Assembly (NCBI GenBank): GCA_017547845.1
Contig: JAFYNZ010000022.1
Coordinates: forward strand, 35,187-99,186
DNA from: Muribaculaceae bacterium
Lineage (GTDB): Bacteria; Bacteroidota; Bacteroidia; Bacteroidales; Muribaculaceae
Length of the DNA stretch: 64,000 nucleotides
Direction: 5' to 3'
The notes beneath the pieces were generated by a model. That model was not told where the DNA came from, did not search any database, and worked only from the letters and a program-made list of their open reading frames with translations. The translations under genes and the position numbers were made by a program. Below, piece by piece: positions 31,920-64,000 of the stretch. Positions within the stretch are counted from its first letter, which is position 1; every line of letters starts with the position of its first letter.

Positions 31920-31924
31920 CAAAG

Positions 31925-45421: not shown

Positions 45422-45505
45422 ATAAAACTTCTTTAAATAATGAGAAGCGAAACGTGCTTTTTATATCTCAAAACACAAACTTTTTGAAGAATCGCCGTTT
45501 TTGTA

Positions 45506-46978: not shown

Positions 46979-46980
46979 AG

Positions 46981-48315
46981 TTAGCTAAACAATTTCTCTA
47001 CCTTGTGAATTGACCCACGCAAGCAAAATACTACTACCGAGTCACCCGCTTCGATGAGTGTGTCACCCGATACGAGGGAGCATTCATTGTTATGCACGAC
47101 TGCTGCAAGTGTCATTCCAGAAGGGAGTTTGAGGTCTTTCACCTTTGATTTTGTGACCTTTGCACCCTGTTTGACTACCAACTCTGCCACTTCGGCATCA
47201 GCCAAAGCGAGAGTCTTGGAATTGTTTTCATCGGCATCAAGCAACAGCTTAAAGATACGGCTTGAAGCGAGGAGTTTCTTATTGATTGCTGTACCGATGT
47301 TAAGGTTTTCTGCCTGAGAAAGGAACTGAAGATTTTCGACCTCTGCTACGGTCTTTTTGACACCAAACTCCTTGGCGGTCAGGCAAGAAAGGATATTGGT
47401 CTCGGAACTATCCGACAAGGCTATAAATGCGTCATACTGCGAGATGCGATTATCTCTAAGCAAGTCGATGTCTCTGGCGTCACCGTGAACGATTTCGCAG
47501 TTGGGTAGTCGATAGGCAAGTTCTTCGCACAAGTCCATATCCGGATCGATAATCTTGATTTGGAATCTGTCGGAGTTTAGAAGCGAGAATCGTATGGCGA
47601 TACGACTGCCCCCCATGATCATCACCTTACGGATGTGGTGATTCTTCTTGCCACAAAGTTCTCTGACTGAATCGAGGTGAACCTTGTCGGTGATGAAATA
47701 GACAATGTCATTCTCGAGGATTATGTCATTACCACCCGGAATGATTGTCTCGTGATTGCGTTTAATAGCTGCTATGTGGAAGAATCTATTGTCGCGAGGT
47801 AAATCCTTGAGATACTTGTTGACCAAAGCCGACTCACCACGAAGTTTGACACCGATAAGAAGTAACTGACCATTGTGCAATTCACCCCAATGTCGTGCCC
47901 ATGTATGCTCGAGCGATGTGCGTATCTCTTGAGATGCAAGGAATTCCGGATAAATCATGTTGTCGACACCCATCTGCTTGAGAATCACCTTGTTTTCTTC
48001 CTTCAGAAATTCGTAGTTGTCGATTCTGGCAACAGTCTTTTTCGCTCCGAGTCGCTTGGCGATGCCACATGATGTGATGTTGCGTGTTTCAAACGGAGTA
48101 ACTGCAATGTACAAGTCAGCTTCATCTACTCTCACCTCTTTCAAGGCTTCAAACGATGAAGTCGACCCGTTGTAGGTCATAAGGTTGTAATTGCTATCGA
48201 TATGGTCGAGGCTATCTTGGTCGCTGTCAATGAGGATGATGTCTTGGTCCTCGTTTGAAAGCAACTTGGCAAGGTGTGTGCCCACCTCTCCTGCTCCTGC
48301 TATAACTATCTTCAT
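46981..48315 (-). CDS. trkA: Trk system potassium uptake protein TrkA
   Basis: A 444-residue cytoplasmic NAD(H)/nucleotide-binding gating subunit. It holds two RCK-N Rossmann domains with fingerprint GAGEVGTHLAKLL (residues 6-18) and MGGSRIAIRFSLL (about 234-246), each followed by an RCK-C domain. Its start codon overlaps the dxs stop codon by four bases (ATGA), implying translational coupling. It acts with TrkH encoded immediately downstream. Confidence 0.94.
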   Translation of the reverse strand: MKIVIAGAGEVGTHLAKLLSNEDQDIILIDSDQDSLDHIDSNYNLMTYNGSTSSFEALKEVRVDEADLYIAVTPFETRNITSCGIAKRLGAKKTVARIDNYEFLKEENKVILKQMGVDNMIYPEFLASQEIRTSLEHTWARHWGELHNGQLLLIGVKLRGESALVNKYLKDLPRDNRFFHIAAIKRNHETIIPGGNDIILENDIVYFITDKVHLDSVRELCGKKNHHIRKVMIMGGSRIAIRFSLLNSDRFQIKIIDPDMDLCEELAYRLPNCEIVHGDARDIDLLRDNRISQYDAFIALSDSSETNILSCLTAKEFGVKKTVAEVENLQFLSQAENLNIGTAINKKLLASSRIFKLLLDADENNSKTLALADAEVAELVVKQGAKVTKSKVKDLKLPSGMTLAAVVHNNECSLVSGDTLIEAGDSVVVFCLRGSIHKVEKLFS

Positions 48316-50225: not shown

Positions 50226-50238
50226 ACGCGGAGACTAA

Positions 50239-50412
50239 TCATTGTTTTGGCTTGCCGTATTTCTTATATAGTGGTGTGAATACGATGACGCCCGACATTG
50301 CGACTACGATGAGATTTTTAAGATTGAAACCACCAAGGTCAATCACGAGCCAACTCAATCCGAGCCACAAGATGACGATTGCCACGAGTCCAAGCTTCTT
50401 TATGCTACTCAT
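50239..50412 (-). CDS. Small 57-residue membrane protein
   Basis: A short frame reads Met-Ser-Ser-Ile-Lys-Lys then two hydrophobic stretches (about residues 7-24 and 33-47) separated by DLGGFNLKN, and ends in a basic tail PLYKKYGKPKQ. The pattern is a two-helix hairpin membrane protein. It fills an otherwise unexplained spacer, 45 bases after the MBL hydrolase gene and 13 bases before dxs on the same strand, as expected for an operon member. I recognise no family. Similar small membrane proteins with a DLGGF-like loop may exist in relatives; this needs a search. Confidence 0.65.
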   Translation of the reverse strand: MSSIKKLGLVAIVILWLGLSWLVIDLGGFNLKNLIVVAMSGVIVFTPLYKKYGKPKQ

Positions 50413-50457
50413 AATGATGCGAAATTACTAATAATTGCTGTAACTGACAACAATCTT

Positions 50458-51099
50458 CTATCTTAAAAACGAATTGTAGCGTCGTTCGTCGCCTACAGTC
50501 GTCTCGGGTCCATGTCCGGGATAGACCACCACGTCTTCAGGCAACGACAGAATCTGCGTCTTGATGGCGTTGATGAGTGTGCTATAGTCGCCACCGGGCA
50601 AATCTGTTCGGCCGATTCCTCCGCTAAACAAGGCATCACCCGACACCAACAATTTTGATGCTTCACAGTAGAGCACTATGCTACCCGGCGAGTGTCCGGG
50701 CACTTGAAGCACCTTTATCTCCTCATCGCCGAGACGGAGGACATCGCCATGCTTGACCATCTGAGCGATCTTGATGTCGTTGACATTTACCGGCAGTCCA
50801 AACATTTTTACTTGCTGAGAGATACGCTCGCCAAGGAATGCGTCGTCTTCGCAACCGATGACAGGCAAGCCATATTTCTCTGCTACATACATGTCACCGG
50901 CAACATGGTCGACATGCATATGGGTATTGATAAGCAAAGTAGGTTTAAGCCCCTTGCTCTCAATGAATTGGCTGAGTCTGTCTTCTTCGAAGTGCGACAT
51001 CATGCCCGGGTCGATGATAGCGCATTCTGCCGAAGTTTCGTCCCAAAGAATATATGTGTTGACCCCAAACATATTGAAGGTCATTCGTTCAAGTTTCAT
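50458..51099 (-). CDS. Metallo-beta-lactamase-fold hydrolase (glyoxalase II-like)
   Basis: A 213-residue cytoplasmic di-zinc hydrolase. The metal motif HXHXDH is H60-M-H62-V-D64-H65; further ligands are the histidine in VPGHSPGS near 135, the aspartate in SGDALFSGG near 154, and the histidine in YPGHGPET near 195. Length and motif spacing fit the short glyoxalase II-like group. It lies 15 bases behind rsmG. The natural substrate cannot be read. Confidence 0.88.
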   Translation of the reverse strand: MKLERMTFNMFGVNTYILWDETSAECAIIDPGMMSHFEEDRLSQFIESKGLKPTLLINTHMHVDHVAGDMYVAEKYGLPVIGCEDDAFLGERISQQVKMFGLPVNVNDIKIAQMVKHGDVLRLGDEEIKVLQVPGHSPGSIVLYCEASKLLVSGDALFSGGIGRTDLPGGDYSTLINAIKTQILSLPEDVVVYPGHGPETTVGDERRYNSFLR

Positions 51100-51114
51100 A
51101 GTTGCTGTCGTGAT

Positions 51115-51756
51115 TTATCGTTTGGAAGATGTCAACACTTGAGTGTAGGTAATCTTCTTGGTTTCAAAAAATTCTTCGGTGAAATATCGTGTGATGTTTT
51201 CGACCATCGACATTGATGCGTATTCAGCCATTTCGGAGTCGAGGTCACCACCTTTGAGTGTTATAACACCGTTGGGGAGATGATTTCTTTGCTGAGAGGA
51301 AATGTTTTTGCGACAGAGTTTAATGAGGTCGGGAAGATTCATCACAGCACGACTGACCACGAAATCAAACTTCTCTTTGCACTCTGCGATGTCGCCATGC
51401 TGGAAAGTGACGTTGGTCAAGCCGATCTCCTCTGCTATCGAAGAAGCGACACGGAGTTTCTTGCCGATACGGTCGATGAGATGGAAATGGCAGTCGGGGA
51501 ACATTGCCGCCAATGGTATGCCGGGCAATCCACCGCCACAGCCGAAGTCGAGAATCTTGCTGCCGGGAGCAAAGCCGATGAACTTGGCGATAGCAAGGCT
51601 GTGAAGGATATGGTTGACCTCGAGGTTGTCGATATCCTTGCGTGAGATGACATTAATCTTGGCATTCCACTCGGGATATAGGCTTAGCATGGCATCAAAT
51701 TGTGCCAATTGCTGCTCCGACAAGTCGGGGAAATATCTGTCAATATACTGAATCAT
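51115..51756 (-). CDS. rsmG: 16S rRNA (guanine-N7) methyltransferase RsmG
   Basis: A 213-residue SAM-dependent enzyme (formerly GidB) that methylates G527 of 16S rRNA. The SAM-binding motif is LDFGCGGGLPGIPLA near residue 70-84, followed by the acidic loop HLIDRIGKK. Normal length. It is first in the minus-strand run rsmG, MBL hydrolase, 57-residue protein, dxs, trkA, trkH. A promoter match lies about 25 bases upstream. Confidence 0.93.
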   Translation of the reverse strand: MIQYIDRYFPDLSEQQLAQFDAMLSLYPEWNAKINVISRKDIDNLEVNHILHSLAIAKFIGFAPGSKILDFGCGGGLPGIPLAAMFPDCHFHLIDRIGKKLRVASSIAEEIGLTNVTFQHGDIAECKEKFDFVVSRAVMNLPDLIKLCRKNISSQQRNHLPNGVITLKGGDLDSEMAEYASMSMVENITRYFTEEFFETKKITYTQVLTSSKR

Positions 51757-51780
51757 ATATCACCTATATATATTATAATG

Positions 51781-51811
51781 CGAATTTAGCAATTTTTCTT
51801 GACACGGCAAG
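51781..51811 (-). promoter_or_regulatory. Promoter of the rsmG-dxs-trk operon
   Basis: On the minus strand, CTTG (51811-51808), exactly 19 bases, then TAAATTCG (51788-51781): one mismatch to each consensus element. Confidence 0.5.
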
Positions 51812-51933
51812 CATTTTGGGTGATTTTTGTCAGCAAATAGTATGCAGAACTCTGCGAATATACGGAATGCTTATAAAGATTGATGCCTGAGTATCCGGGA
51901 ATGCTTACGAAGATAGAAGGGATAGTCTTTATG

Positions 51934-51979
51934 GGTGTCCTGTCCCTGTCCTGGTGTCTGCGCTTGTCCTCGCTGTCCC
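51934..51979 (+). repeat. TGTCC element copy A
   Basis: A 46-base element built on CTGTCCCTGTC ... TTGTCC ... TGTCCC. It differs from copy B (56836-56881) at 3 of 46 positions by eye. It lies in the 470-base spacer between rsmG and ppdK, 25 bases before the 9-bp array. Confidence 0.85.
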
Positions 51980-52003
51980 ATACGAGAGAGAGGGAGGGAG
52001 ATA

Positions 52004-52120
52004 GATACAATAGATACTATAGATACTATAGATACTATAGATGCGAGAGATGCTATTGATGCGATAGATAGGATAGATGCGAGAGATGCGAGAGATGCGA
52101 GAGATAGGATAGATGCTTGT
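52004..52120 (+). repeat. 9-bp tandem array 1 (GATnnnnnn units)
   Basis: Thirteen consecutive 9-base units in perfect register, all starting GAT or close to it: GATACAATA, GATACTATA three times, then GATGCGAGA, GATGCTATT, GATGCGATA, GATAGGATA and repeats of these. Because the period is a multiple of three, the array keeps reading frames open and produces a spurious Ile-Asp-rich frame. Confidence 0.85.
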
Positions 52121-52177
52121 AGGGAGGATAGATGGGATAGATATAATGGAGGGTTAGAAGGTGGGGAGAATGAGAGA

Positions 52178-52202
52178 GGGGCGCTCCGATGTGGAACACC
52201 CC
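52178..52202 (-). terminator. Hairpin after ppdK
   Basis: On the minus strand, GGGGTGTTCC pairs with GGAGCGCCCC (10 bp including two G-U pairs) around a five-base loop, followed by TCTCTCATTCT. Confidence 0.6.
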
Positions 52203-52227
52203 TCCGAGATATGTAGTCTTATCGGGA

Positions 52228-54945
52228 TTAGCAGCCGATTGCAGCTTGAGCAGCAGCTACGCGAGCGATAGGCACACGGAATGGTGAGCAGCTTACGTAG
52301 TTCATGCCAAGGTTAGCACAGAACTTAACTGATGATGGTTCACCACCATGTTCGCCACAGATACCGACTTTGAGTTCAGGCTTAGTAGCGCGACCCTTTT
52401 CTACACCCATGCGTACGAGTTGGCCTACACCTTCTTGGTCGAGTACTTCGAATGGGTCTACCTTGAGGATACCCATTTCCTTGTAGATCTTGAGGAACTT
52501 AGGAGCGTCGTCACGAGAGTAACCGAATGTCATCTGAGTCAAGTCGTTGGTACCGAATGAGAAGAAGTCGGCTACTTCAGCGATTTCGTTTGCTGTGAGT
52601 GCAGCACGAGGCACTTCAATCATTGTACCTACCTTATAGTCTACAGTCGCACCGCGTTCTTCGAACACCTTAGCGGCTGTAGTGTTGATGACGTTAGCTT
52701 GGTTTTGGAGTTCCTTGAGAGTACCTACGAGTGGCACCATGATTTCAGGGTGAACATCGATACCGCGTTCCTTACAGTTGAGAGCCGCTTCGATGATAGC
52801 GCGAGTCTGCATTTCTGTGATTTCAGGGTATGTGATACCGAGACGGCAACCACGGTGACCGAGCATTGGGTTGAATTCAGCGAGGCTTTCTACCTTAGCT
52901 GCCACTTCTTCGAGAGAGAGGCCCATGTCGTCAGCGAGTTCTTGTTGAGCTGCAACTTCGTGTGGTACGAATTCGTGCAATGGTGGGTCAAGGAGACGTA
53001 CAGTCACGCCGAAACCGTCCATAGCTTCAAAGATACCTTCGAAGTCACCACGTTGCATAGGGAGAAGTTTAGCGAGTGCTACACGACGACCTTCTTCGTC
53101 GCTTGCGAGGATCATTTCGCGTACTGACTTGATGCGGTCGCCTTCGAAGAACATGTGTTCTGTGCGGCAGAGACCGATACCTTGAGCACCGAAGTAGCGT
53201 GCTTGACGAGCGTCGCGTGGAGAGTCGGCGTTAGTGCGAACGAGAGTCTTAGTGTACTTGTCAGCGAGGTCCATGATAGCACCGAAGTCACCATCGAGTT
53301 CTGGGTCTGTAGTAGCTACTTGACCGTCGTAAACGTCACCTGTAGAACCGTTAAGAGAGATCCATTCGCCTTCAGCGTAAGTCTTACCGTTCATAGTAAG
53401 AGTCTTTTCCTTGTAGTCTACAGCGATTTCACCTGCACCAGATACGCAGCACTTACCCATACCACGAGCCACAACGGCAGCGTGAGATGTCATACCACCA
53501 CGCATTGTGAGGATACCTTGAGCTACAGCCATACCACGGAGGTCTTCAGGAGAAGTTTCAACGCGTACGAGCACTACCTTCTTGCCTTGTTCTGCCCATG
53601 CTTCAGCGTCTTCGGCTTGGAATACGATTTGACCTGTAGCAGCACCCGGAGAAGCAGGGAGACCCTTAGCCATCACTTTAGCCTTCTTGAGTTCTTCCTT
53701 GTCGAATACAGGGTGAAGGAGTTCGTCGAGCTTTTGTGGCTCCATACGAGCGAGAGCAGTCTGCTCGTCGATAACGCCGTCGCGGAGGAGGTCCATAGCG
53801 ATCTTCACCATTGACGCACCTGTGCGCTTACCGTTACGAGTTTGGAGCATCCAGAGCTTACCGTCTTGGATAGTGAACTCCATGTCTTGCATATCCTTAT
53901 AGTATGCTTCGAGACGATTAGAAGTAGCGATAAGTTCTGCAGCGAGGGCAGGCATAGTTTCTTCGAGAGAAGGATATTTAGAAGCACGTTCTTCTTCAGA
54001 GATGCCTTGGAGGGCAGCCCAACGACGTGAGCCTTCGAGAGTGATTTGTTGTGGAGTGCGGATACCTGCTACTACGTCTTCACCTTGAGCGTTGATGAGG
54101 TATTCACCAGTGAAGATGTTTTCACCAGTCGCAGAGTCACGGCTGAAAGCCACACCAGTCGCAGAGTTGTCGCCCATGTTGCCGTAAACCATTGCTTGAA
54201 CGTTTACTGCAGTACCCCATTCTTCAGGGATTTGGTTCATGCGACGATAGAGGATAGCGCGTTCGTTCATCCAGCTGTCGAATACAGCGCAGATACCGCC
54301 CCAGAGTTGTTCCCAAGCAGAGTCAGGGAAGTTTTTGCCTGTGAAGTCGAGCACAGCTGCTTTGAAGCGCTTAACGAGTTCCTTAAGGTCTTCTACTTCG
54401 AGGTCGAGGTCGTTCTTGACACCCTTTTCCTCTTTTACTTTATCCATGATTTCTTCAAATGGGTCGATGTCGGTCTTGCTCTTTGGCTTCATACCGAGCA
54501 CAACATCACCATACATTTGAACGAAACGACGATAGCTATCCCAAGCGAAACGTGGGTTGCCACTCTTTTCTGCCAATGAAGCTACAGTAGCGTCATTCAT
54601 ACCAAGGTTGAGGACAGTGTCCATCATACCAGGCATAGAAGCACGAGCACCAGAACGTACAGACACGAGAAGAGGGTTGGAAGAGTCGTCAAACTTCATG
54701 CCTGTCAATGACTCAACGTGAGCGATAGCTGCTTCTACTTCGTCTTTGATAGAAGCTACGACTGCCTCACGGCCTTTCTTTGTGTATTCTGTACAAACTT
54801 CTGTTGTGATTGTAAAACCAGGAGGTACTGGCATACCCAACAGGTTCATCTCTGCAAGGTTAGCACCCTTGCCACCGAGAAGGTTTCTCATCCCGGCGTT
54901 ACCTTCGGCTTTACCGTCGCCGAATGTATAGACATTTTTCACCAT
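52228..54945 (-). CDS. ppdK: Pyruvate, phosphate dikinase
   Basis: A 905-residue enzyme interconverting pyruvate, ATP and phosphate with PEP, AMP and pyrophosphate; in anaerobic Bacteroidales it links glycolysis and PEP metabolism. The N-terminal ATP-grasp domain starts KNVYTFGDG and includes the loop NLLGGKGANLAEM. The swivelling histidine lies in GGMTSHAAVVARGMG near 455. The C-terminal PEP-binding barrel ends with the catalytic cysteine region MNYVSCSPFRVPIARVAAAQA. Full length with no defects. No ppdK regulatory protein gene is adjacent. Confidence 0.96.
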   Translation of the reverse strand: MVKNVYTFGDGKAEGNAGMRNLLGGKGANLAEMNLLGMPVPPGFTITTEVCTEYTKKGREAVVASIKDEVEAAIAHVESLTGMKFDDSSNPLLVSVRSGARASMPGMMDTVLNLGMNDATVASLAEKSGNPRFAWDSYRRFVQMYGDVVLGMKPKSKTDIDPFEEIMDKVKEEKGVKNDLDLEVEDLKELVKRFKAAVLDFTGKNFPDSAWEQLWGGICAVFDSWMNERAILYRRMNQIPEEWGTAVNVQAMVYGNMGDNSATGVAFSRDSATGENIFTGEYLINAQGEDVVAGIRTPQQITLEGSRRWAALQGISEEERASKYPSLEETMPALAAELIATSNRLEAYYKDMQDMEFTIQDGKLWMLQTRNGKRTGASMVKIAMDLLRDGVIDEQTALARMEPQKLDELLHPVFDKEELKKAKVMAKGLPASPGAATGQIVFQAEDAEAWAEQGKKVVLVRVETSPEDLRGMAVAQGILTMRGGMTSHAAVVARGMGKCCVSGAGEIAVDYKEKTLTMNGKTYAEGEWISLNGSTGDVYDGQVATTDPELDGDFGAIMDLADKYTKTLVRTNADSPRDARQARYFGAQGIGLCRTEHMFFEGDRIKSVREMILASDEEGRRVALAKLLPMQRGDFEGIFEAMDGFGVTVRLLDPPLHEFVPHEVAAQQELADDMGLSLEEVAAKVESLAEFNPMLGHRGCRLGITYPEITEMQTRAIIEAALNCKERGIDVHPEIMVPLVGTLKELQNQANVINTTAAKVFEERGATVDYKVGTMIEVPRAALTANEIAEVADFFSFGTNDLTQMTFGYSRDDAPKFLKIYKEMGILKVDPFEVLDQEGVGQLVRMGVEKGRATKPELKVGICGEHGGEPSSVKFCANLGMNYVSCSPFRVPIARVAAAQAAIGC

Positions 54946-55046
54946 CGGATTAATTGATTTATTAAAGTTATTCTTATATATGGTTTAAACTTACTAATAC
55001 TATGCGTAAACGACACTTTTACTTGGTAAATTGCGTTTTTCGACTG

Positions 55047-55084
55047 CAAATTTAGGAAAAATCGGTGAAATATGACTAATTTTG
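55047..55084. promoter_or_regulatory. Divergent -7 elements for ppdK and the rRNA methyltransferase
   Basis: Minus strand TAAATTTG (55054-55047) faces ppdK with a leader of about 95 bases. Plus strand TAATTTTG (55077-55084) precedes the methyltransferase start at 55106 by about 21 bases. I see no upstream TTTG at the usual distance for either, so only half of each promoter is supported. Confidence 0.45.
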
Positions 55085-55105
55085 CCCCAAAAATGTAGAT
55101 ATTTT

Positions 55106-56560
55106 ATGTCAAGAAAGAGAAAATCCTTACCCGAACTACACAATATCGAGATTACCGACGTTGCCGCTGAGGGCAAATCCATCGCTCGCGTGGCTACTTC
55201 TGCCGATAGCGACGAGCGTATGGTGGTGTTCATTCCCTACGGTGCTCCGGGCGACATCGTCAACCTCAAGGTCGACAAGAAGAAGAAGACTTGGGCAGAG
55301 GCTCACATCACTGAGATTGTGACCCCTTCGCCTATCCGCACTGCCCCTCGCTGTCAGCACTTCGAGACTTGTGGCGGCTGCAAGTGGCAACACCTCCCCT
55401 ACGATTTCCAGATCAAATGCAAGCAGCAGCAAGTGACCGACGCTTTGGAACGTATTGCCAAGGTCGAAATCCCTGCCATCTCCCCTATCCTCGGCTCCGA
55501 CAAGATATGGGAGTACCGCAATAAGATGGAATACACCTTCTCAGCCAAGAAGTGGCGCACATGGGAGGAAATCCGTGCCAATGCCGAGTTTCAAGACTCC
55601 TCCAACGCTTTGGGTTTCCACATCCCGGGAGCGTTTGACAAGGTGCTACACATCGAGCGTTGCCACCTTCAAGACTCCGTAGGCGACGCTATCCGCAACC
55701 ATGTCTTCGACTATGCTGAAGCCAACGGCCTCTCATTCTATGATATAAAGATGCGCGAGGGCTTGCTTCGCACTATGATGATACGCATCGCTTCGACAGG
55801 TGAGATTATGGTCTGCATGGTATTTGGCGAGGACGACAAGTCGGTCATCGAGCCGTTGATGAACAACCTTGCCGAGGCTTTCCCACAGATCACCTCTCTG
55901 CTCTATGTCGTCAACCTCAAACTCAACGACACTATCTTCGACCAAGACATCATCACCTTCAAGGGTCGCGACTACATCGTCGAAAGCATGGAAGGATTGC
56001 AATTCCGTGTCAATGCCAAGTCGTTCTATCAGACCAACTCGCTGCAAGCCTACGAACTCTACAAGGTGACTCGCCGTCTTGCCGGTCTCGAAGAGCAACG
56101 CCCTGAGAATGAACGACCTTTGGTCTACGACCTCTACACCGGCACCGGCACTATCGCCAACTTCGTAGCACGCAACTGCCGCCAGGTGGTGGGCATCGAA
56201 TATGTGCCTGAGGCTATCGACGACGCACGCCTCAACTCGCAAGTCAACGGCTTGGACAACACCCTCTTCTACGCAGGCGACATGAAGGATATCCTCACCG
56301 ACGAATTTGTGGCTCGCCACGGCCGTCCTGATGTGATGATTATCGACCCTCCACGCGCCGGTATGCACGAAGATGTGGTCAATGTCATCCTCAATGCTGA
56401 GCCAGATGTGCTTGTCTATGTCAGCTGCAACCCTGCTACTCAAGCACGCGACCTCGCTCTGCTCGATGCGAAATATCGCGTGACCGATGTGCAACCTGTC
56501 GACATGTTCCCTCACACTCACCATGTCGAAAATGTCGTGCGACTCGTCAAGCGCGACTGA
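55106..56560 (+). CDS. rlmD: 23S rRNA (uracil-5-)-methyltransferase, RlmD/RumA family
   Basis: A 484-residue RNA m5U methyltransferase. It begins with a TRAM RNA-binding domain (about 10-72). A 4Fe-4S site follows with C83, C89, C92 and probably C105 (CX5CX2C). The SAM-binding DLYTGTGTIANF is near 351, the DPPRAGMHE motif near 420, and the nucleophile C441 lies in VSCNPAT. The frame can extend to a TTG at 55082, but this precedes the transcription start, so 55106 is chosen. RlmD, RlmC and related enzymes differ mainly in target uridine, which cannot be decided. The gene is visibly richer in G+C than those in the left half. Confidence 0.9.
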   Translation: MSRKRKSLPELHNIEITDVAAEGKSIARVATSADSDERMVVFIPYGAPGDIVNLKVDKKKKTWAEAHITEIVTPSPIRTAPRCQHFETCGGCKWQHLPYDFQIKCKQQQVTDALERIAKVEIPAISPILGSDKIWEYRNKMEYTFSAKKWRTWEEIRANAEFQDSSNALGFHIPGAFDKVLHIERCHLQDSVGDAIRNHVFDYAEANGLSFYDIKMREGLLRTMMIRIASTGEIMVCMVFGEDDKSVIEPLMNNLAEAFPQITSLLYVVNLKLNDTIFDQDIITFKGRDYIVESMEGLQFRVNAKSFYQTNSLQAYELYKVTRRLAGLEEQRPENERPLVYDLYTGTGTIANFVARNCRQVVGIEYVPEAIDDARLNSQVNGLDNTLFYAGDMKDILTDEFVARHGRPDVMIIDPPRAGMHEDVVNVILNAEPDVLVYVSCNPATQARDLALLDAKYRVTDVQPVDMFPHTHHVENVVRLVKRD

Positions 56561-56615
56561 TAGCAGCAAAGGAGAGAATACATCAATAGATAATACGGAT
56601 ATATTACAAGGAAGG

Positions 56616-56650
56616 CCCCATACTCAAGTGCTGAGTATAGGGTCTTTTCT
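56616..56650 (+). terminator. Intrinsic terminator of the rRNA methyltransferase gene
   Basis: CCCATACTCA pairs with TGAGTAT-A-GGG (one bulged A) around a five-base loop, followed by TCTTTTCTT. Confidence 0.75.
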
Positions 56651-56680
56651 TATAAGGGGATTTCTGCCCTTGCTACTACC

Positions 56681-56715
56681 AAAGGCCTAAAGGGGCTATA
56701 AGGCCCAAAAGGCAT
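56681..56715 (+). repeat. GGCCTAAA family, copy a
   Basis: AAAGGCCTAAAGGGG...GGCCCAAAAGGCAT, related to copies at 60276, 60521 and 63802. It lies between the rRNA methyltransferase and helicase-like genes. Confidence 0.7.
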
Positions 56716-56719
56716 TCAC

Positions 56720-56818
56720 TCCGATGACTCTACTCGCCATCAACTCTGCACTCCATCGACTCCGACAGCAGTGACATTGCTGCTTCTCTGATGACTCTGA
56801 TGATAGCAGTGACTTAGC
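56720..56818 (+). repeat. AGTGACATTGC family, copy a
   Basis: Contains CGATGACTCT, CTCCATCGACT and CAGCAGTGACATTGCTGCTT, then a partial second unit GATAGCAGTGACTTAGC. The same blocks recur, rearranged, at 59361-59465 and in reverse at 60491-60518. Confidence 0.65.
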
Positions 56819-56835
56819 ATCGAGAGGTAGCGTTA

Positions 56836-56881
56836 GGTGTCCTGTCCCTGTCCGAGTGTCTGCACTTGTCCTCGCTGTCCC
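56836..56881 (+). repeat. TGTCC element copy B
   Basis: A 46-base near-identical copy of the element at 51934. It ends one base before the stop codon (minus strand) of the helicase-like gene, so the element abuts the gene end. Confidence 0.85.
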
Positions 56882-56882
56882 G

Positions 56883-58169
56883 TTACGCATTGCCCGGTGC
56901 GATCACCTCTGCCTTGTCGAGTCTATAGTCAGTCACCATTCTGCCGATGACTGATTTGGAGACACCCAGTTGCTCTGCTATCTTACGAATCGAGAGACCC
57001 TCGCTACGCAACTGAGCGACTTCGCTGAGGCGACTGTCGGACTTGGTGTCGAGCAAGTGGCGTTCGTCGCAGGTGACGGAGGGCTCGAAGCAGAGGAAGC
57101 CGTCGTCATACTGCACCACTTGTCCCGTGAGCACATTGTCGATGCCATGCTCCAAGATGCCCATACGCGTCTTTATCTGCTTGATGTAGCGCGTATTGTC
57201 GTGTGCCGACTTGCCCATCGCAAAGACGGAGTCGAAGAAGTTGAAGAGGCGTTTGGAGCCTGCAAGGTCGTTTTGCGATATCGGCTGAGTGAGGTCGCGT
57301 TTGGGAGTGTGGGCGATGACGAGCACCGAGAGTCCGAGTCGCTTCTTGAGCTCCATCAGGCGTGCCATGAATCGTCCTGCCGTGTCGCCCGACTCGGAGT
57401 TGTTGCAGAGGCAGGTGAGGTTGTCGATGATGATGACGCTGCATTGGTCGCTGACGGCTGCCTGCTCGATGGCGTTCATCAGTGAGTCTTCGTTGCCCGC
57501 GATGTCGCCTTCGACTGCCACGACCGGTCGACGCAGATAGGGGCTGAAGATGTAGCTCTTGGAGGTCTGCTCTACGGTGTAGCGCATCTGAAATTGCTTC
57601 TTGGTCAACTCGAAGTCGTAGTAGTGGACGACGCGACGGAAGTTGAGTGCGATGTGGTCGGCTATTTGCACTGCGAGTATCGACTTGCCGACATTGGAGT
57701 CGGCGAAGAGGCACGCTATCTCCCCCTCGTTCCAGAACGGCGGATAGAGGCGTATCGGGTTGGGCATCTCGCGAGCCTCGATGATGGCATCGTTGGCTGA
57801 CTGCAATTCGATGCAACCGACTGTGGTTATGCCCCAATTCCACCCCTTCTGACGGCGCAATTCGGCGAGTTGCTCATCGGTCGGCGCCACCGGCTGACGC
57901 TTGGCAATCTCTGTCGCCACCTCCATATAACTTGCCGTCTGTGGCTCTGCGACCGGCACGACTTCTGCCGCTGTCGGAGGCTCTGCGACCGCTGTCGGCT
58001 CTGTTGCCACACTTGGCATCGGGGTCACCTCCACATCTGCCACGCCGATAAGTTCGGCTGCCTTGAGGAGTCGCTCCACCTCGGGCGATGTGCGATTGAT
58101 ATACGCGATTTTCTCTGCGATAGGGAGCGATGCGAGTTGCTCCGGAGTGATTGAAATTTGTCTGTTCAT
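56883..58169 (-). CDS. RecA-like AAA ATPase, helicase-type, with C-terminal HTH
   Basis: A 428-residue protein resembling RepA/DnaB-type replicative ATPases of mobile elements (AAA_25-like). A charged N-terminus is followed by a linker rich in Pro, Ala and Val (48-80). The ATPase core has Walker A FADSNVGKS (155-163) and Walker B SVIIIDNLTCL near 250. A sensor-type motif VLVIAHTPK and the downstream DLAGSKRLFNFFDSVFAM follow, as in this superfamily. The C-terminal 45 residues form a helix-turn-helix (IRKIAEQLGVSKSVIGRMV). It is 61 bases behind the primase-like gene. It is visibly rich in G+C. Function in replication is by family resemblance only. Confidence 0.75.
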   Translation of the reverse strand: MNRQISITPEQLASLPIAEKIAYINRTSPEVERLLKAAELIGVADVEVTPMPSVATEPTAVAEPPTAAEVVPVAEPQTASYMEVATEIAKRQPVAPTDEQLAELRRQKGWNWGITTVGCIELQSANDAIIEAREMPNPIRLYPPFWNEGEIACLFADSNVGKSILAVQIADHIALNFRRVVHYYDFELTKKQFQMRYTVEQTSKSYIFSPYLRRPVVAVEGDIAGNEDSLMNAIEQAAVSDQCSVIIIDNLTCLCNNSESGDTAGRFMARLMELKKRLGLSVLVIAHTPKRDLTQPISQNDLAGSKRLFNFFDSVFAMGKSAHDNTRYIKQIKTRMGILEHGIDNVLTGQVVQYDDGFLCFEPSVTCDERHLLDTKSDSRLSEVAQLRSEGLSIRKIAEQLGVSKSVIGRMVTDYRLDKAEVIAPGNA

Positions 58170-58230
58170 ACAATTAGATTCAGTTATTAATTAGTAAATA
58201 AAAAATGTTGATTAACTCATTGATTAGTAG

Positions 58231-59205
58231 TCAGTAGATGCGATTGAGTCTGAATGCGTCGATTTCGTCGGTGATAGTCGACAACGCTGCCAACTTCTGC
58301 CCCGTGGTGTCGCTCAACGCCTCGATCACCACATCGGCAAGGTCTATCTTCGAGCGCGACGGTCGCTCGGCGATAATCGTCGGCCAAGCACGGCTGAAAC
58401 GCAACGAGCAAGTGAAGCGATAAGCGTCAAGTCGCAGACTCCAGTCCTCCACAGCGTCGCTATCGGCAAAGACCAGCACTCGGCGTCCGCGCAGCACCTC
58501 CATGCGACCACCCTCAAGTTGGGTGATACCACCCGTCGCAAGCCATGTCCCACGAGGCCATATCGCCGCACACAGCACTGCCGTCTTCTCACTCTCCACC
58601 AGGCAGACCACATCCGTCGGCACAGCCCGGGCAAGCAGATGAGCACCGAAAAGACACTGCTTCAGCACAAACTTGATAGGCAACTGCCCGATGCGTATCA
58701 GTATCGAGTGAGCCCAATCGACTCCACACGCCATCTCCCTGCGTCGCTTCAGAGTCAGCGGGTCGTAGGCCATCACCTTGCCGGTGCGCGTCTCCCCCTG
58801 CTCGTCAATCTGCCACCATATCACCCTACCCATGCGGTCGGCACCGACACGATAGCGACCGAGCACCTCGGTGGTCAACGCCTCACCCATCAGCCGACAC
58901 ATTCCTCGAGCGAAATCCGAGCGAAGAGAGTGCTTCACCATCTCCTCGGGTATCACCGAATGCCGCTCCTGCTGCGGCATCTGCCTTGCCGGCAACGCCA
59001 CCGACTCGTTGACAGCCCCGACATCACGCGGAGCAAGATGGTAGCCACACGAATTGACATGGTTGCAACGCCCGCAGTCCTCTCGCAGAGCCTCGCCCGA
59101 CTCCACATCGACATAACGCTTAAAACTGCGCCGTCCACACCGCGGACACTCATGAAGCGTCGCCATGCCGCGATACGCCTCCAATCTGTAACGATAACTG
59201 TTCAT
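58231..59205 (-). CDS. Toprim primase-like protein with zinc-ribbon N-terminus (DUF6371-like)
   Basis: A 324-residue protein. An N-terminal zinc ribbon has C20 and C23 (CPRCG), then C44, C47 and C53 (CGRCNHVNSCGYH). The central part resembles DUF6371-type proteins as I remember them. The C-terminal half is a Toprim fold: the catalytic glutamate is E204 in LVESEKTA, the next strand is WLATGGI, and the paired aspartates lie in VFADSDA near 252. This is the layout of primases of phages and plasmids. It pairs with the downstream helicase-like ATPase. An array of 9-bp repeats lies 40 bases upstream. No integrase or relaxase is near, so this may be a stranded or dispersed replication module. Confidence 0.7.
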   Translation of the reverse strand: MNSYRYRLEAYRGMATLHECPRCGRRSFKRYVDVESGEALREDCGRCNHVNSCGYHLAPRDVGAVNESVALPARQMPQQERHSVIPEEMVKHSLRSDFARGMCRLMGEALTTEVLGRYRVGADRMGRVIWWQIDEQGETRTGKVMAYDPLTLKRRREMACGVDWAHSILIRIGQLPIKFVLKQCLFGAHLLARAVPTDVVCLVESEKTAVLCAAIWPRGTWLATGGITQLEGGRMEVLRGRRVLVFADSDAVEDWSLRLDAYRFTCSLRFSRAWPTIIAERPSRSKIDLADVVIEALSDTTGQKLAALSTITDEIDAFRLNRIY

Positions 59206-59246
59206 TTTTGGGTTTAAGGTTTAATGGTTAATCTAAAAGGTGGATA

Positions 59247-59359
59247 GGTACTATAGATGCTATAGATACTATAGATGCTATAGATGCTATAGGTACTATA
59301 GATGCTATAGATACTATAGATGCTATAGATACTATAGATGCTATAGATACTATAGATGC
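59247..59359 (+). repeat. 9-bp tandem array 2, mostly 18-bp higher-order units
   Basis: Twelve 9-base units in register (GATGCTATA alternating with GATACTATA, and two GGTACTATA), then a partial GATGC. The alternation gives an 18-base higher-order period. It sits 42 bases upstream of the primase-like gene, as iterons do at plasmid origins, but the same units also occur far from it. Confidence 0.85.
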
Positions 59360-59360
59360 C

Positions 59361-59465
59361 CGATGACTCTGCTTCTCGCCGATGACTTAGCCGATAGCAG
59401 TGACATTGCTTTTGCTGCTTCCCTCCATCGACTTTGCCGATTGTAGCGACTCTGCTTTTGCTGCT
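59361..59465 (+). repeat. AGTGACATTGC family, copy b
   Basis: Contains CGATGACTCT, GATAGCAGTGACATTGC, CTCCATCGACTTTGCCGA and a decayed repeat of the same (GATTGTAGCGACTCTGC). It shares blocks in different order with the copy at 56720. Confidence 0.65.
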
Positions 59466-59596
59466 AAAAAATATATATGCAGCAAGCGATGGAGTCACTG
59501 TCCCGAGACGATAGTCAGCAAAGGGACCGGGACCCTGAGCGTAGCAAAAGAAGAGAGTCCTAAGGTCGATGACCGAGATGTAGATCATCGAAGGTT

Positions 59597-59642
59597 TCCG
59601 GTCTTTGACCTTAAAGACCTTAGTGACCTTAAAGACTTTAAG
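59597..59642 (+). repeat. 18-base-period direct repeat GACCTTAAAGAC
   Basis: GACCTTAAAGAC occurs at 59607-59618 and 59625-59636, an exact 18-base spacing, with related CTTTAAGGAC flanks. Confidence 0.6.
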
Positions 59643-60170
59643 GACACTACTCCGTGTAGCAGAGGGGCGAATGTCCCGTGAAGACAATGCTTTAGCAGAG
59701 GGTCATATAGGGACAGAGCCTCGAGGCGTAGCAAAGGCGAAGTCTTATCAAAGACGAGCCTTAACTATATAGAAAGATATCTATTACTACTTGTAGGAAT
59801 TAGATATAGCTCTCCCCCTCTCTTCCCTCTCTTAGAGGAAAGAGTGCGACTACCGACCACACCAATAGTCCAAACAATATGTCAAAGTAAACGCAGATTG
59901 TTCAAGTCCTCAGACGAGCAGAACAATTATCCGACTCCGGAGTCAGCAAGGATACCCATCAGGGCAAGGTCAAACGACTTAAGCGAGAAACTGTCAGCCA
60001 CACAACATCTCAGTCGACACATACGAGGGAATCACCGACGATTCCCGAATTCGGTTTAGAATCAGCGACATATCAAGTCGCTTTCTAAATTCGATTGCAA
60101 AGTTACAACAATATTTTGACTCCACCAAACTTTCGAGCAAAAAAATTTCGTAAAAATGATAGGGCTGTGT

Positions 60171-60222
60171 TGTCCTGTGTACTGTCCCTGTCTTGGGAGT
60201 CCGTGATTGTCCGTAGTGTCCC
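60171..60222 (+). repeat. TGTCC element copy C
   Basis: A 52-base form beginning TGTCCTGTGT and ending AGTGTCCC. It aligns without gaps to copy E inside the GNAT gene (reverse strand there) over all 52 bases, with about nine differences by eye. Confidence 0.8.
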
Positions 60223-60275
60223 AGCGAGATATGGAGAGGGTTTAGAGAGTTTAAGGAATATAGGGAGTGTAGGGC

Positions 60276-60364
60276 AAAGGCCTAAAAGGGCGAAAAGGCC
60301 TAAAGAGCCTAAAATGCTCAAAAGACCATCGGGAGGAAAGTGCTAAAAGGCATCGCCCATTAAA
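60276..60364 (+). repeat. GGCCTAAA family, copy b (double)
   Basis: Contains AAAGGCCTAAAAGGGC followed by AAAGGCCTAAAGAGCCTAAA and ends GGCATCGCCCATTAAA. The inner unit is extended relative to copy c by about 25 bases (GACCATCGGGAGG region). Confidence 0.7.
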
Positions 60365-60423
60365 CAACGCATCTCTTATATCTATAGCATCTGTTGTATC
60401 TATAAAATCTATCTTCACGCAAT

Positions 60424-60467
60424 AGGACAACGAGGACAAAGTCGGACTCTCGGACAGGGACAGGACA
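60424..60467 (-). repeat. TGTCC element copy D
   Basis: On the minus strand it reads TGTCCTGTCCCTGTCCGAG ... TTTGTCCTCGTTGTCC, closest to copy B. Confidence 0.8.
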
Positions 60468-60490
60468 GTAGACTCTACCCCTTGACACAT

Positions 60491-60518
60491 AGTCACTGCT
60501 ATCGGCAATGTCGTCAGA
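60491..60518 (-). repeat. AGTGACATTGC family, copy c (fragment)
   Basis: On the minus strand it reads TCTGACGACATTGCC then GATAGCAGTGACT, a rearranged fragment of the family seen at 56720 and 59361. Confidence 0.55.
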
Positions 60519-60520
60519 GG

Positions 60521-60567
60521 AAAGGCCTAAAGAGCCTAAAATGTCCAAAAGGCATCGCACATTAAAT
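60521..60567 (+). repeat. GGCCTAAA family, copy c
   Basis: AAAGGCCTAAAGAGCCTAAA, ATGTCCAAAAGGCATCGC and ACATTAAAT, the compact form of copy b. Confidence 0.7.
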
Positions 60568-60617
60568 CCTACACACTACACATTACGCACTCGATACATC
60601 TACATTATAGCGAGGGA

Positions 60618-60649
60618 TTTGGTCAGTTGGGAGAATTTTCGTAACTTTG
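60618..60649 (+). promoter_or_regulatory. Promoter of engB, close to the start codon
   Basis: TTTG (60618-60621), 20 bases, then TAACTTTG (60642-60649). The start codon is at 60657, only 8 bases past the -7 element, so the transcript should have almost no 5' leader. Confidence 0.65.
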
Positions 60650-60656
60650 CACTGAT

Positions 60657-61256
60657 ATGAATATACGCAATGCTAAATATGAGGTGAGCAATGCTCGCGT
60701 CGATATGTGTCCGCAGGTGGAAGTGCCGGAGTATGCTTTTATCGGTCGTTCCAATGTCGGCAAGTCGTCGCTTATCAATATGCTTACTCGTCGCAAGGGG
60801 CTTGCCAAAACATCGCAGATGCCCGGTAAGACTTTGCTAATCAATCATTTCTCTATCAACGATGGGGAGTGGTATATCGTCGACCTTCCGGGTTATGGCT
60901 ATGCTTCTCGTGGCAAGAATCAGCGTGAGGAGATCAATAAGATAATCCGCAACTACATCATGCGTCGCGAGCAGATGACATGTCTTTTTGTCTTGCTCGA
61001 CTGCCGTCACGAGGCTCAGAAGATAGACTTGGAGTTTATCAATTGGCTTGGTGAGGAGGGTGTGCCGTTTGCTATCGTGTTTACCAAGGCCGACAAACTC
61101 GGTCCGAACGCTGCCGCCGCCAAGGTGGAGGCGTATAAGAAGGTGCTTCTTGAGAACTGGGAGGAGTTGCCGCCCATCTTCTTGACATCGTCGGAGAAGG
61201 GCACAGGCCGCGACGAGTTGCTCGACTACATCGACGCTATCAATCAGGAGGTGTAG
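60657..61256 (+). CDS. engB: Ribosome biogenesis GTPase EngB (YihA/YsxC)
   Basis: A 199-residue GTPase needed for late 50S subunit assembly. G1 is GRSNVGKS at 30-37, G3 is DLPGYGYA starting at D77, and G4 is FTKADK near 141. The start is supported by the family N-terminal strand NAKYEVSN and the clear promoter just upstream. It begins a plus-strand run engB, gtrA-like, recR, GNAT. Confidence 0.95.
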
Positions 61257-61330
61257 ATGCCCCAAAAAATGTTTTGCCCCATTCTGCATCACACCTTAAA
61301 ACCTAAACATTACACATTAAACACTAAAAT

Positions 61331-61774
61331 ATGAAACTCAAGAAGGCTCACAAACTCATCTCCGGCAAGGGACGACTGAGCGAGATTATACGCTTCGGAC
61401 TCGTCGGTGGATTTTCGTCTTTGCTGCAGTATGCCATCTATCTTGTCTTTGTCGACATCATAGAGTTGGTGCCGGAAGTGTCGACGATTGTCAGTTATGT
61501 CATCAGTTTTGTGTTCAACTTCATACTCTCTCACTATTTCACATTCCAGACCAAGCCGAATGCGTTGAAGGGTGTCGGGTTTGCACTCAGTCACCTTATC
61601 AACATGGGTATGCAGACGGGACTTGTGGCTATCTTCAGCCGACTGATAGGTGACTCGTTTGCATTGCTTCCTGCGATGGCCATCTGCATTCCGTGCAACT
61701 ATCTGATGGTGCGTTTTGCGTTGACCAATCGTCGCTTTGAGACAAAGAAGCGCAAGAACTACCACGCAGAGTGA
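61331..61774 (+). CDS. GtrA-like membrane protein
   Basis: A 147-residue protein with four hydrophobic segments (about 20-42, 47-67, 80-102, 110-130). It carries the GtrA-family opening RFGLVGGFSSLLQYAIY and a basic C-terminal tail (NRRFETKKRKNYHAE). Family members are thought to flip undecaprenyl-linked sugars for cell-surface polysaccharide. It is 74 bases after engB and 18 bases before recR. Confidence 0.85.
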   Translation: MKLKKAHKLISGKGRLSEIIRFGLVGGFSSLLQYAIYLVFVDIIELVPEVSTIVSYVISFVFNFILSHYFTFQTKPNALKGVGFALSHLINMGMQTGLVAIFSRLIGDSFALLPAMAICIPCNYLMVRFALTNRRFETKKRKNYHAE

Positions 61775-61792
61775 GAGACGGCTTAAATCGCT

Positions 61793-62416
61793 ATGAATCA
61801 AAGTTATAATTCATCATTGCTCGACGGAGCGGTCGCAGAGTTGTCGAAATTGCCGGGCATTGGCTCAAAGACAGCGTTGCGTCTGGCACTTCATCTGCTT
61901 CGTCAGGAGAAGGGAGTGGCGTTGGCTCTGGGCAATGCCATCATCAAGATGCGCGAGGAGGTGGCTTATTGCAGTCGCTGCCATAGCATCAGCGAGCAAG
62001 AGTTGTGTCCTATCTGCTCGGATAGCCGCAGAGATCAGGCAGTGGTGTGCGTGGTGGAAAACATCAAAGATGTGCTCACCATCGAGGCTACACGCGAGCA
62101 CCGAGGTGTCTATCATGTGCTGGGAGGGCTTATCTCGCCACTCGACGGCATCGGCCCCGGCGATATCGAGATTGACTCGCTCATAGAGCGTGTGACGACC
62201 GAAGATGTGAGGGAGGTGATACTCGCTCTCAGCCCTACGATGGAGGGCGACACGACCAATTTCTATATCTTCCGACGCTTGGCCGATCTGCCGGTGAAGG
62301 TGACCATGCTTGCACGCGGTCTGAGCATCGGCAATGACTTGGAGTTCACAGACGAGTTGACGCTCGGTCGCTCCATACAGAATCGTATCCTATTTTCCGA
62401 CACCATCTCACGCTAA
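61793..62416 (+). CDS. recR: Recombination protein RecR
   Basis: A 207-residue DNA-repair protein that loads RecA at gaps with RecF/RecO. It has the N-terminal helix-hairpin-helix ([17 protein letters not shown]), the C4 zinc finger CSRCHS...CPIC (about 62-77), a Toprim domain ([15 protein letters not shown], then [17 protein letters not shown]) and the C-terminal Walker-B-like strand. Normal length. Confidence 0.96.
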
Positions 62417-62422
62417 GTCGCC

Positions 62423-63013
62423 ATGCTATCGACAGAACGCATCACTCTACGCCCTCTTGAGCCTCAGGACCTCGAGTTTCTCTATCGGTGGGAAAACGAC
62501 ACTGCGCTGTGGCAATATGCCGATACGGTCGCTCCTCTGTCGCAGCATCTGCTCCGCAACTATATCGACAACTATGACGCCGACATCTTCCGTGCCTCAC
62601 AATTGCGTCTGATGATTGAGCATCGACAGCGGGACATCGTGGACAAACACGGACTCCCAAGACAGGGACAGGACTGCGGACAGCCTACTGAGTGTGGAGA
62701 TGCGGCCGATTGCACCATCGGCATGATTGATATTTACGACCTCGACATTCGCAATCAGCGTGCTATGATAGGCATTTTGATTGCTGAGAAATGGCGTGGC
62801 AATGGCTACGCTCGTGAGGCTATCGACTTGGTGGCTGACTATGCTCGCGATATGCTCGGACTGACACAATTGGCTGCTTATGTGGCGACCGACAATGAGG
62901 CATCGATGCGACTGTTTGAGGCGTGTGACTTCAGCCATAGCGGCACGCTGAGACGCTGGCGTAGAGTCGGCCAACGTTGGACTGATGTCGCCGTGATGCA
63001 ACGACTCTTCTGA
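62423..63013 (+). CDS. GNAT acetyltransferase with repeat-derived insertion
   Basis: A 196-residue GNAT-fold acyltransferase of the RimJ/RimL-like type. It opens with ITLRPLEPQDLEFLYRWEND. The acetyl-CoA loop is AEKWRGNGYAREA (about 121-133) and the C-terminal strand is FEACDFSHSG. Between strand end LRLMIE (61-66) and IGMIDIYDLD (99-108), where relatives normally have a short turn, there are about 30 extra residues. Residues 70-87 are encoded by a copy of the dispersed TGTCC element (62631-62682, reverse strand). The frame stays open, so the copy is coding. It begins 6 bases after recR; the acceptor is unknown. Confidence 0.8.
   Translation: MLSTERITLRPLEPQDLEFLYRWENDTALWQYADTVAPLSQHLLRNYIDNYDADIFRASQLRLMIEHRQRDIVDKHGLPRQGQDCGQPTECGDAADCTIGMIDIYDLDIRNQRAMIGILIAEKWRGNGYAREAIDLVADYARDMLGLTQLAAYVATDNEASMRLFEACDFSHSGTLRRWRRVGQRWTDVAVMQRLF
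62631..62682 (-). repeat. TGTCC element copy E, inside the GNAT gene
   Basis: A 52-base copy in reverse orientation, matching copy C across its length. It encodes RDIVDKHGLPRQGQDCGQ in the GNAT protein. Confidence 0.85.
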
Positions 63014-63015
63014 AA

Positions 63016-63057
63016 ACTATAGATACTATAGATACTATAGATACTATAGATACTATA
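63016..63057 (+). repeat. 9-bp tandem array 3 (GATACTATA)
   Basis: A partial ACTATA, then four perfect GATACTATA units, starting 2 bases after the GNAT stop codon, between the convergent GNAT and DUF2520-like genes. Confidence 0.85.
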
Positions 63058-63069
63058 AATCCTATTCCC

Positions 63070-63768
63070 TTAATCCTGAATGCTCTGGGCGAGCAGACGG
63101 TAGATTTCAGCAAGGCGAGGGTTGTCGGCAAGCATAGCGATGTGGGAGTCGATGATGACTTGGTCGCGACGGACGGCAGGACCTGTCTGTGCCTGTCGAG
63201 GCGACACTTTGTCGACCTTGCGTATGGTCTCCCCTATCAATGGGCGTAACACACTGATGTCAAGCGATTTCTGCTTTAGCAACTCATCGGCTATGGCAAG
63301 CATATGGTTGACATAATTGCAGGCGAAGACCGATGCTATGTGGAGGGTGCGACGCTTGTCGGAATCGGCGTCGTAGACCTTTTCTGACACTGACGATGCC
63401 ACGCTACGCAACACCTCTGACACTCGCTCACTGCTCCCTTCGATGAAGAATGGCAACTCCGCATAGTCGAGTGCCACATCCTTGGAAAATGTCTGCAACG
63501 GATAGAACACGCCGTAGTCGTCGACGCTTTCGGCAAGCACCGTCATCGGTGTAGAACCCGATGTATGGGCCACTATCCCTTTGAAACCGTTGAGTCGCTC
63601 GGCTACGCTGATGATGGCTGAATCGCTGACCGAGATCAGGGCAAGGTCGGCATCTGCGGGGAAGTCCTCGAGAGTGCGAGGGTTGACCGGCACGACTTGA
63701 TAGTGTGGCAGCAAGGCCTTGATGAGATGGGTGGCTACATTGCCACGCCCTATGATGGCTATTTTCAT
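63070..63768 (-). CDS. Rossmann-fold and DUF2520 domain protein
   Basis: A 232-residue protein. The N-terminus has the dinucleotide-binding fingerprint IGRGNVATHL (6-15), similar to F420/NADP oxidoreductases and ketopantoate-reductase-like enzymes. A helical C-terminal domain (about 130-230, including LHIASVFACNYVNHMLAIA) fits DUF2520. Such proteins are widespread in Bacteroidetes with no established substrate. It is probably a reductase or dehydrogenase; a monocistronic gene convergent with the GNAT gene. Confidence 0.82.
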   Translation of the reverse strand: MKIAIIGRGNVATHLIKALLPHYQVVPVNPRTLEDFPADADLALISVSDSAIISVAERLNGFKGIVAHTSGSTPMTVLAESVDDYGVFYPLQTFSKDVALDYAELPFFIEGSSERVSEVLRSVASSVSEKVYDADSDKRRTLHIASVFACNYVNHMLAIADELLKQKSLDISVLRPLIGETIRKVDKVSPRQAQTGPAVRRDQVIIDSHIAMLADNPRLAEIYRLLAQSIQD

Positions 63769-63801
63769 AATAGATAACTGTATTTCAGGAGGATAGGAAT
63801 C

Positions 63802-63858
63802 AAAAGCCTAGAGGGGTTAAAAGGCCCAAAAGGCATCGCCCATCGCCCATTAAACATT
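63802..63858 (+). repeat. GGCCTAAA family, copy d
   Basis: AAAAGCCTAGAGGGG, AAAAGGCCCAAAAGGCATCG, a doubled CGCCCAT and ATTAAACATTAAA. It lies upstream of the DUF2520-like gene and ends the repeat zone in this window. Confidence 0.65.
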
Positions 63859-63967
63859 AAAGGGAACTTCTATAAATTCCCGGATTTAGTTATTTCTTTA
63901 GTTTGAGGGTTCTTCCTTTTGTGTGCTCTATGTTTTTAATCGGCATCTTTTCGCCTTTAACTCAGTC

Positions 63968-63983
63968 GTATAGCTCGCTATAC
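63968..63983. other. Short palindrome near the right edge
   Basis: GTATAGC-TC-GCTATAC, a 7-bp inverted repeat with a two-base centre. It lies in the last 230 bases, where no gene longer than an 18-codon frame (63890-63946, minus) is seen. Meaning unknown. Confidence 0.3.
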
Positions 63984-64000
63984 TCCTTGCGTTAAAAACA

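Follow-up and report, generated by a model that had tools for sequence, protein, structure and literature searches.

How a dispersed repeat comes to lie in frame within the gene of a conserved enzyme is the question raised by a stretch of 64,000 nucleotides from a Muribaculaceae bacterium (hereafter the window), which forms the end of the 99-kb contig C19 in a draft genome of 2.32 Mb and 69 contigs. A sequence-only reading of the window had noticed that a TGTCC element present in five places has a 52-base copy inside a GNAT acetyltransferase gene, and had likened it to the coding palindromic elements of Rickettsia. The features concerned are collected in Table 1.

Table 1. Positions of the repeat copies, their host genes and the neighboring marker gene (window coordinates, except for the copy on contig C53).
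Feature	Position	Strand	Basis or remark
Host gene: SpeG-like GNAT acetyltransferase, 196 aa	62423..63013	+	ORF and translation, PF13302
recR	61793..62416	+	RecR and Toprim domains (Pfam); landmark for the equivalent locus in relatives
Whole extra stretch of GNAT	62624..62712	+	~residues 68-97; absent or a short turn in relatives
TGTCC repeat copy inside GNAT	62631..62682	-	Residues 70-87, in frame, GGACA strand coding
Intergenic copy with the TGTCTTGGG variant, as in the GNAT copy	60170..60223	+	R1 E 3.8e-14
Intergenic copy facing 60170-60223	60423..60473	-	R1 E 8.4e-15
Intergenic copy whose end adjoins the stop codon of gene 56883-58169 (minus strand)	56831..56882	+	R1 E 7.4e-14
Intergenic copy	51933..51980	+	R1 E 7.0e-14
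Second genic copy, in frame in menD (585-residue MenD)	C53:7807-7860	GGACA strand coding	ORF, R1

The host gene is open from end to end, as had been claimed, and its product matches PF13302 at E 8.5e-22 (78.8 bits, against a curated cut-off of 25.4), with spermidine N-acetyltransferases as the top solved chains (E 2e-12). It is directly preceded by recR, and RecR is also present in 27 of the 29 GNAT loci of relatives extracted with 1.5-kb flanks, the two loci without it being on short contigs. In named genomes, the top RecR matches come from MAGs of Muribaculaceae and other Bacteroidales.

The repeat extends well beyond the window. A 15-base word, allowed at most one mismatch, occurs at 25 places in the genome (4 for the reversed word), and the 25 copies found in this way were aligned (alignment A2) and converted into a sequence-only profile, R1. 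With this profile the genome yields 27 copies at E < 1e-9, rather than the five first counted, plus one match at chance level. The four other copies of the window do lie outside supported genes, as stated earlier, but two of them overlap mechanically called ORFs of 93 and 85 aa. Another search word, TGTCCTGACC, was the wrong one, with 7 matches against 2.83 expected. Elsewhere, R1 gave two weak matches in the 110 other genomes of the genus (best E 0.003) and, in a coarser screen, three weak matches in 396 other genomes of the family (best E 5.3e-4); the coarser screen, whose genomes are partly those of the genus set, scored, and recovered, 14 of the 27 copies of the genome of origin. The genomes G076, G110 and G066 returned three weak matches in total (best E 0.003), two of them in G076 (E 0.011 and 8.8). 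A pattern scan of genome_contigs found 0 repeat matches, and a viral carrier was rejected after 0 hits in viral_contigs, records near the window having possibly been excluded from both. The family has so far been seen in this genome alone.

The presence of a copy in the GNAT coding sequence, where it is read as RDIVDKHGLPRQGQDCGQ, is borne out by several comparisons. It forms an inverted-repeat pair of 52 nt with 60171-60222 (83%), it finds five partners by BLAST against the spacers of the contigs compared (three of the five at E 7.4e-8, 6.2e-7 and 1.8e-6), and it scores 62 against the consensus, the top of 2000 dinucleotide shuffles being 34. Its R1 match reaches 53.7 bits (E 3.2e-14), the copy being itself among the 25 model sequences of that profile.

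Relatives mostly lack this part of the protein. GNAT matches were found in at least 103 of 111 genus genomes, and those listed mostly align with residues 1 to ~67 and from ~95 on, leaving ~68-96 unmatched. Alignments were made for 29 genus loci (28 covering the site and one cut) and for G076, a genome that holds the closest GNAT relative. The stretch is absent in 27 of the 28 loci that cover the site, the remaining one (L027) having an unrelated longer loop. Similarly, among 80 RecR loci from named genomes, which overlap in part with the genus genomes, 61 have a GNAT gene and were counted, 19 having none; the stretch is absent in all 61, one of which (L227) carries eight different extra residues. 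All comparison genomes belong to other species, none to the same species. The G076 protein is only 51% identical and its gene lies in an AT-rich part of the contig, so that an empty GNAT site in a close relative is lacking.

The earlier equation of the insert with the repeat stands in part only: the extra stretch is longer than the repeat, which supplies about 17 residues of a net difference of 23 from G076, or of 25 gap columns relative to most genus relatives. All 14 positions that are invariant in a 40-sequence alignment are retained, in agreement with the claim that the core motifs are intact. By alignment to SpeG chains and to relatives, the stretch would lie in a turn that joins two strands, as had been proposed, and immediately ahead of the acetyl-CoA loop. 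A native origin of the stretch, with a fortuitous or ancient resemblance to the repeat, is scarcely credible: the turn does vary among relatives (L027, L227), but the copy outscores all 2000 shuffles and matches a spacer copy by BLAST, the stretch is missing from nearly all loci compared, and a second gene carries a copy.

This second gene is menD. Its product has the domains of TPP enzymes, and the top solved chains for it are MenD. The repeat is read here as VGTLRTNTDTQDRDRTV, in a reading frame different from that of the GNAT copy. MenD of G076 is 92-93% identical, which allows a comparison at closer range: in windows of 250 bases the two menD genes are 88-96% identical, except in the repeat-bearing window (76%). 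Between FFSLL and DKTK, the protein studied here has 17 residues made by the repeat and that of G076 has 15 of other sequence (45 nt); most of the relatives shown have shorter loops than these two, and a few have longer ones. The G076 loop is like the repeat at a shuffle p of 0.02 to 0.2, an ambiguous result on which its reading as a decayed copy was not retained. A clean insertion in menD is likewise not supported, since G076 has 45 nt of other sequence and no empty site; the event may instead have been a replacement, or the parallel growth of a loop of variable length. Judged from these alignments, a clean insertion is established for neither gene. The earlier description of an in-frame insertion is therefore kept as regards a dispersed repeat lying in frame, but not as regards insertion, given that no target-site duplication was found and that the menD site is not empty in G076.

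It might be objected that assembly or binning stitched the repeat into genes of a draft in 69 contigs. Several copies, that of GNAT included, do lie less than 1.4 kb from a contig end. We nevertheless regard such an artefact as very improbable: the rest of the gene continues in frame on both sides of both genic copies, menD departs from G076 in the repeat-bearing window alone, and the GNAT copy is identical to none of the others.

The repeat is compatible with translation to a degree that depends on the strand. In 19 of the 27 copies all three frames of the GGACA strand are free of stops, in 10 those of the TGTCC strand, compared with 35% of shuffled copies; the coding strand is the GGACA strand in both genic copies, and in the GNAT copy all three TGTCC-strand frames are likewise open. 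A variant that is one base longer, with TGTCTTGGG, occurs in 4 of the 27 copies, both genic ones among them (6/351, p 0.017). Only these two copies lie within ORFs of at least 150 aa, 10 others overlapping only shorter, mechanically called ORFs. Although ORFs of that size cover 84.6% of the seven contigs on which the repeat occurs, no more than 2 of 27 copies are genic, which means that the repeat is largely excluded from genes and that the genic copies are rare survivors.

Among ORFs of at least 150 aa in these seven contigs, the other repeats shared between genes and spacers at E 1e-4 involve the end of one ORF on C18 and a 157-aa ORF of 9-bp units (C19:94400-94873). The latter, at window 59214-59687, consists mostly of such units, has no Pfam match and is probably not a gene. 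Degenerate tracts of 9-bp units (ATAGATACT and the like) are also found in spacers at window 51999-52119, 59242-59358 and 63017-63061, and a C46 tract similar to the ATAGATACT type matches several contigs of G076. Other modules shared between spacers are 9-bp units of the AAAGGCC type and CATTAAACA units (window 60276-60562 and 63802-63861).

The distribution of the family is regional. All 27 copies are on 7 of the 69 contigs, which sum to 323,832 bases or 14% of the genome, and the five copies of C19 all fall within its last 12.1 kb. Genes of all seven contigs match within 400 kb of one contig of a relative (440-840 kb being the part compared), and in G076 C53 and C19 are joined at their right ends. 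On this map and this join, made with a draft genome, the copies probably share a single part of the chromosome. A site linked to the replication origin was rejected: in G028, dnaA is at 79 kb of contig C11 and, within the part compared, matches to genes of the repeat-bearing contigs fall at 468-831 kb; in G088, ~203 kb separate dnaA from a GNAT match. There is no tight link of the repeat to dnaA.

Neighboring copies are also co-oriented. In the 12 cases where adjacent copies are separated by more than 1 kb, there are 0 switches of orientation (p 2.4e-4), and the sole switches between neighbors occur in two facing pairs, at C46:21652-21817 (L097) and window 60170-60473, whose members are ~60 and 200 bp apart. 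The orientation does not depend on which strand the nearest gene uses (13 copies agree and 14 do not), nor clearly on GC skew (16 to 11).

The composition of C19 changes toward the same end. Up to 77 kb, third-position GC ranges over 0.32-0.51 and is mostly near 0.41; it is 0.53-0.57 between 80 and 86 kb and reaches 0.58-0.67 beyond 90 kb, where most C19 copies are found; the rise spans the last 18 kb (C19 80.7-99 kb, window 45500-64000). In relatives, three G028 genes matched there have values of 0.52-0.56, and the GC-rich G037 has 0.74-0.82.

Regarding age, two intergenic sites on C46 could be aligned with G076, which has the flanking genes and lacks the repeat; two further C46 sites, which are unaligned, are occupied in G076 by 1.7 and 7.5 kb of other DNA. 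The absence at these sites implies that the family spread after the split from G076, or that it was lost there. As G076 is 81% complete, copies in that genome could be missed. Along the G076 contig C44 (L275/L276), ~10 kb that are 90% identical to C53 are followed by stretches at 66% (GC near 0.30) and then by sequence at 88%; this genome is perhaps a mosaic in which segments were replaced by DNA of a distant relative.

The block itself, ~52 bp long, can be written TGTCC-NN-TGTCCTGTCCCTGTCC-GGG-WGTC-YG-NNNT-TGTCC-NNNN-TGTCCC. Within A2 the boxes start ~5, 6, 8, 10 and 9 bases apart, an uneven spacing, and copies are single blocks of 39-54 nt in which no tandem, head-to-tail units of equal length were found. 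On a tree of the 25 aligned copies, the 10 box columns outside the search word require 1 parsimony change, against 66 for the 19 remaining columns of the range 26 to 54; two of the 27 copies are absent from A2 and hence from the parsimony and folding tests. The invariance of the boxes is partly circular, because they were named after the alignment had been viewed, and the conservation of the first 15 columns is partly due to the use of that word to find the copies. The left-edge box is conserved at 52-84% per base, and beyond it most flank positions are at 30-60%.

Dispersed copies, the two C46 sites that lack the repeat in G076, genic copies in two frames and a drop in conservation outside the core are what would be expected of a non-autonomous mobile element of the MITE or Rickettsia-palindrome type, mobilized by a transposase in trans and kept where the frame stayed open. 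Presence or absence between close genomes is indeed one property shared with MITEs. Other such features are lacking. Both ends of the repeat are TGTCC in direct orientation (A2), so that terminal inverted repeats are absent. The target-site duplication sought at the suggestion of the sequence-only reading did not appear: for 25 of the 27 copies of this genome, direct repeats at the ends do not exceed those of shuffled pairings, the observed mean being reached by 28 and 56 of 300 shuffles. As had been stated, the repeat is non-palindromic; the RNAalifold consensus fold of 25 of the 27 copies has 0 pairs, and five repeat sequences folded as single strands stay within their shuffles (z -1.53 to 0.46). 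These results, together with the small number of contigs occupied, make a mobile element distinctly unlikely. A structured RNA was also rejected, in view of the absence of consensus pairs and of an Rfam search at gathering scores (window, C46 and C53:1-20000) that gave tmRNA only; the tmRNA gene is at window 31520-31922.

The reading that we prefer, and to which we would give an even chance, is that of a young, regional and lineage-specific repeat of ~52 bp, copied as tracts and tolerated in loops of GNAT and MenD. The family would have spread within one part of the chromosome by copying of short tracts, with no recognizable transposase; template switching at replication forks and ectopic gene conversion are candidate routes. 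Such local copying would explain the regional spread, the local co-orientation and the missing transposon ends. Two of the 27 copies would have landed in genes, and it is proposed that they survived there because the GGACA strand is often stop-free, the tract was copied without a shift of frame, and the two sites, being loops, accommodate differences in length. What counts against plain copying without selection is the near-invariance of the TGTCC boxes among variable spacers. Copying fails to explain this feature, and a bound site would explain it, for which reason a role in binding is kept as the main rival.

According to this rival, the boxes would be an array bound by a protein, a selected DNA site that marks or organizes the region, and the genic copies would be translated in addition. 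Besides the contrast between boxes and spacers, the intervals between box starts, the confinement to seven contigs and a co-orientation that persists over kilobases independently of gene strand are consistent with such a site. On the other hand, no convincing copies occur in the relatives searched, so that any role would be private to the lineage; neither gene strand nor GC skew clearly governs the orientation; and the box pattern owes something to the search word and to the way in which the boxes were named. We consider a binding site unlikely, though it keeps the best standing among the alternatives. A further version, in which a polar, lineage-specific TGTCC-box site marks the region and selection placed it within the frames of two conserved enzymes, seems quite improbable.

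Local copying of a tolerated repeat can be set beside systems described elsewhere. A review describes the RPEs of Rickettsia as palindromic elements of ~150 bp, found in and between genes, with genic copies that are in frame and translated, and nearly half of those of R. conorii are in ORFs (PMC10969869). The resemblance seen by the sequence-only reading has gained from menD, a second gene in which the repeat is read in another frame: in both cases a short repeat lies in and between genes, its genic copies in an open frame. It is limited by the share of genic copies, 2 of 27 here, and by a length of ~52 bp, the lack of a palindromic fold, the few contigs and another phylum. In outcome, the repeat would work like an RPE, but it is not a member of that family.

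The enterobacterial elements RU-1/ERIC, RU-2 and RU-3 are described as small intergenic repeats that carry terminal inverted repeats, form stable stem loops and have TA target duplications, some intragenic copies being fused with reading frames (PMC2759123). A mainly intergenic location with some genic copies is common to both, whereas inverted ends, stem loops and target duplications were not found in the TGTCC repeat. Closer by descent is Porphyromonas gingivalis, which belongs to the same order as this bacterium. Its BrickBuilt element, a MITE/minisatellite, is presented as a tandem array of short 23-nt units with small inverted-repeat ends, always intergenic, with 19 copies in one strain and a limited host range (PMC4596501). 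The build from short units and the limited host range are shared, and the unevenly spaced boxes, the lack of inverted ends and the two genic copies set the present repeat apart. Genic repeats of this kind in Bacteroidales did not appear among the top-ranked open-licence literature matches listed.

Translated repeats that enter genes are best known from Rickettsia, whose genomes are reduced and whose elements are palindromic. A non-palindromic, regional repeat in two enzymes of a member of the Bacteroidales would suggest that neither a palindrome nor genome reduction is needed for repeats to enter genes, and the idea that non-coding repeats give rise to new protein loops would become testable outside Rickettsia.
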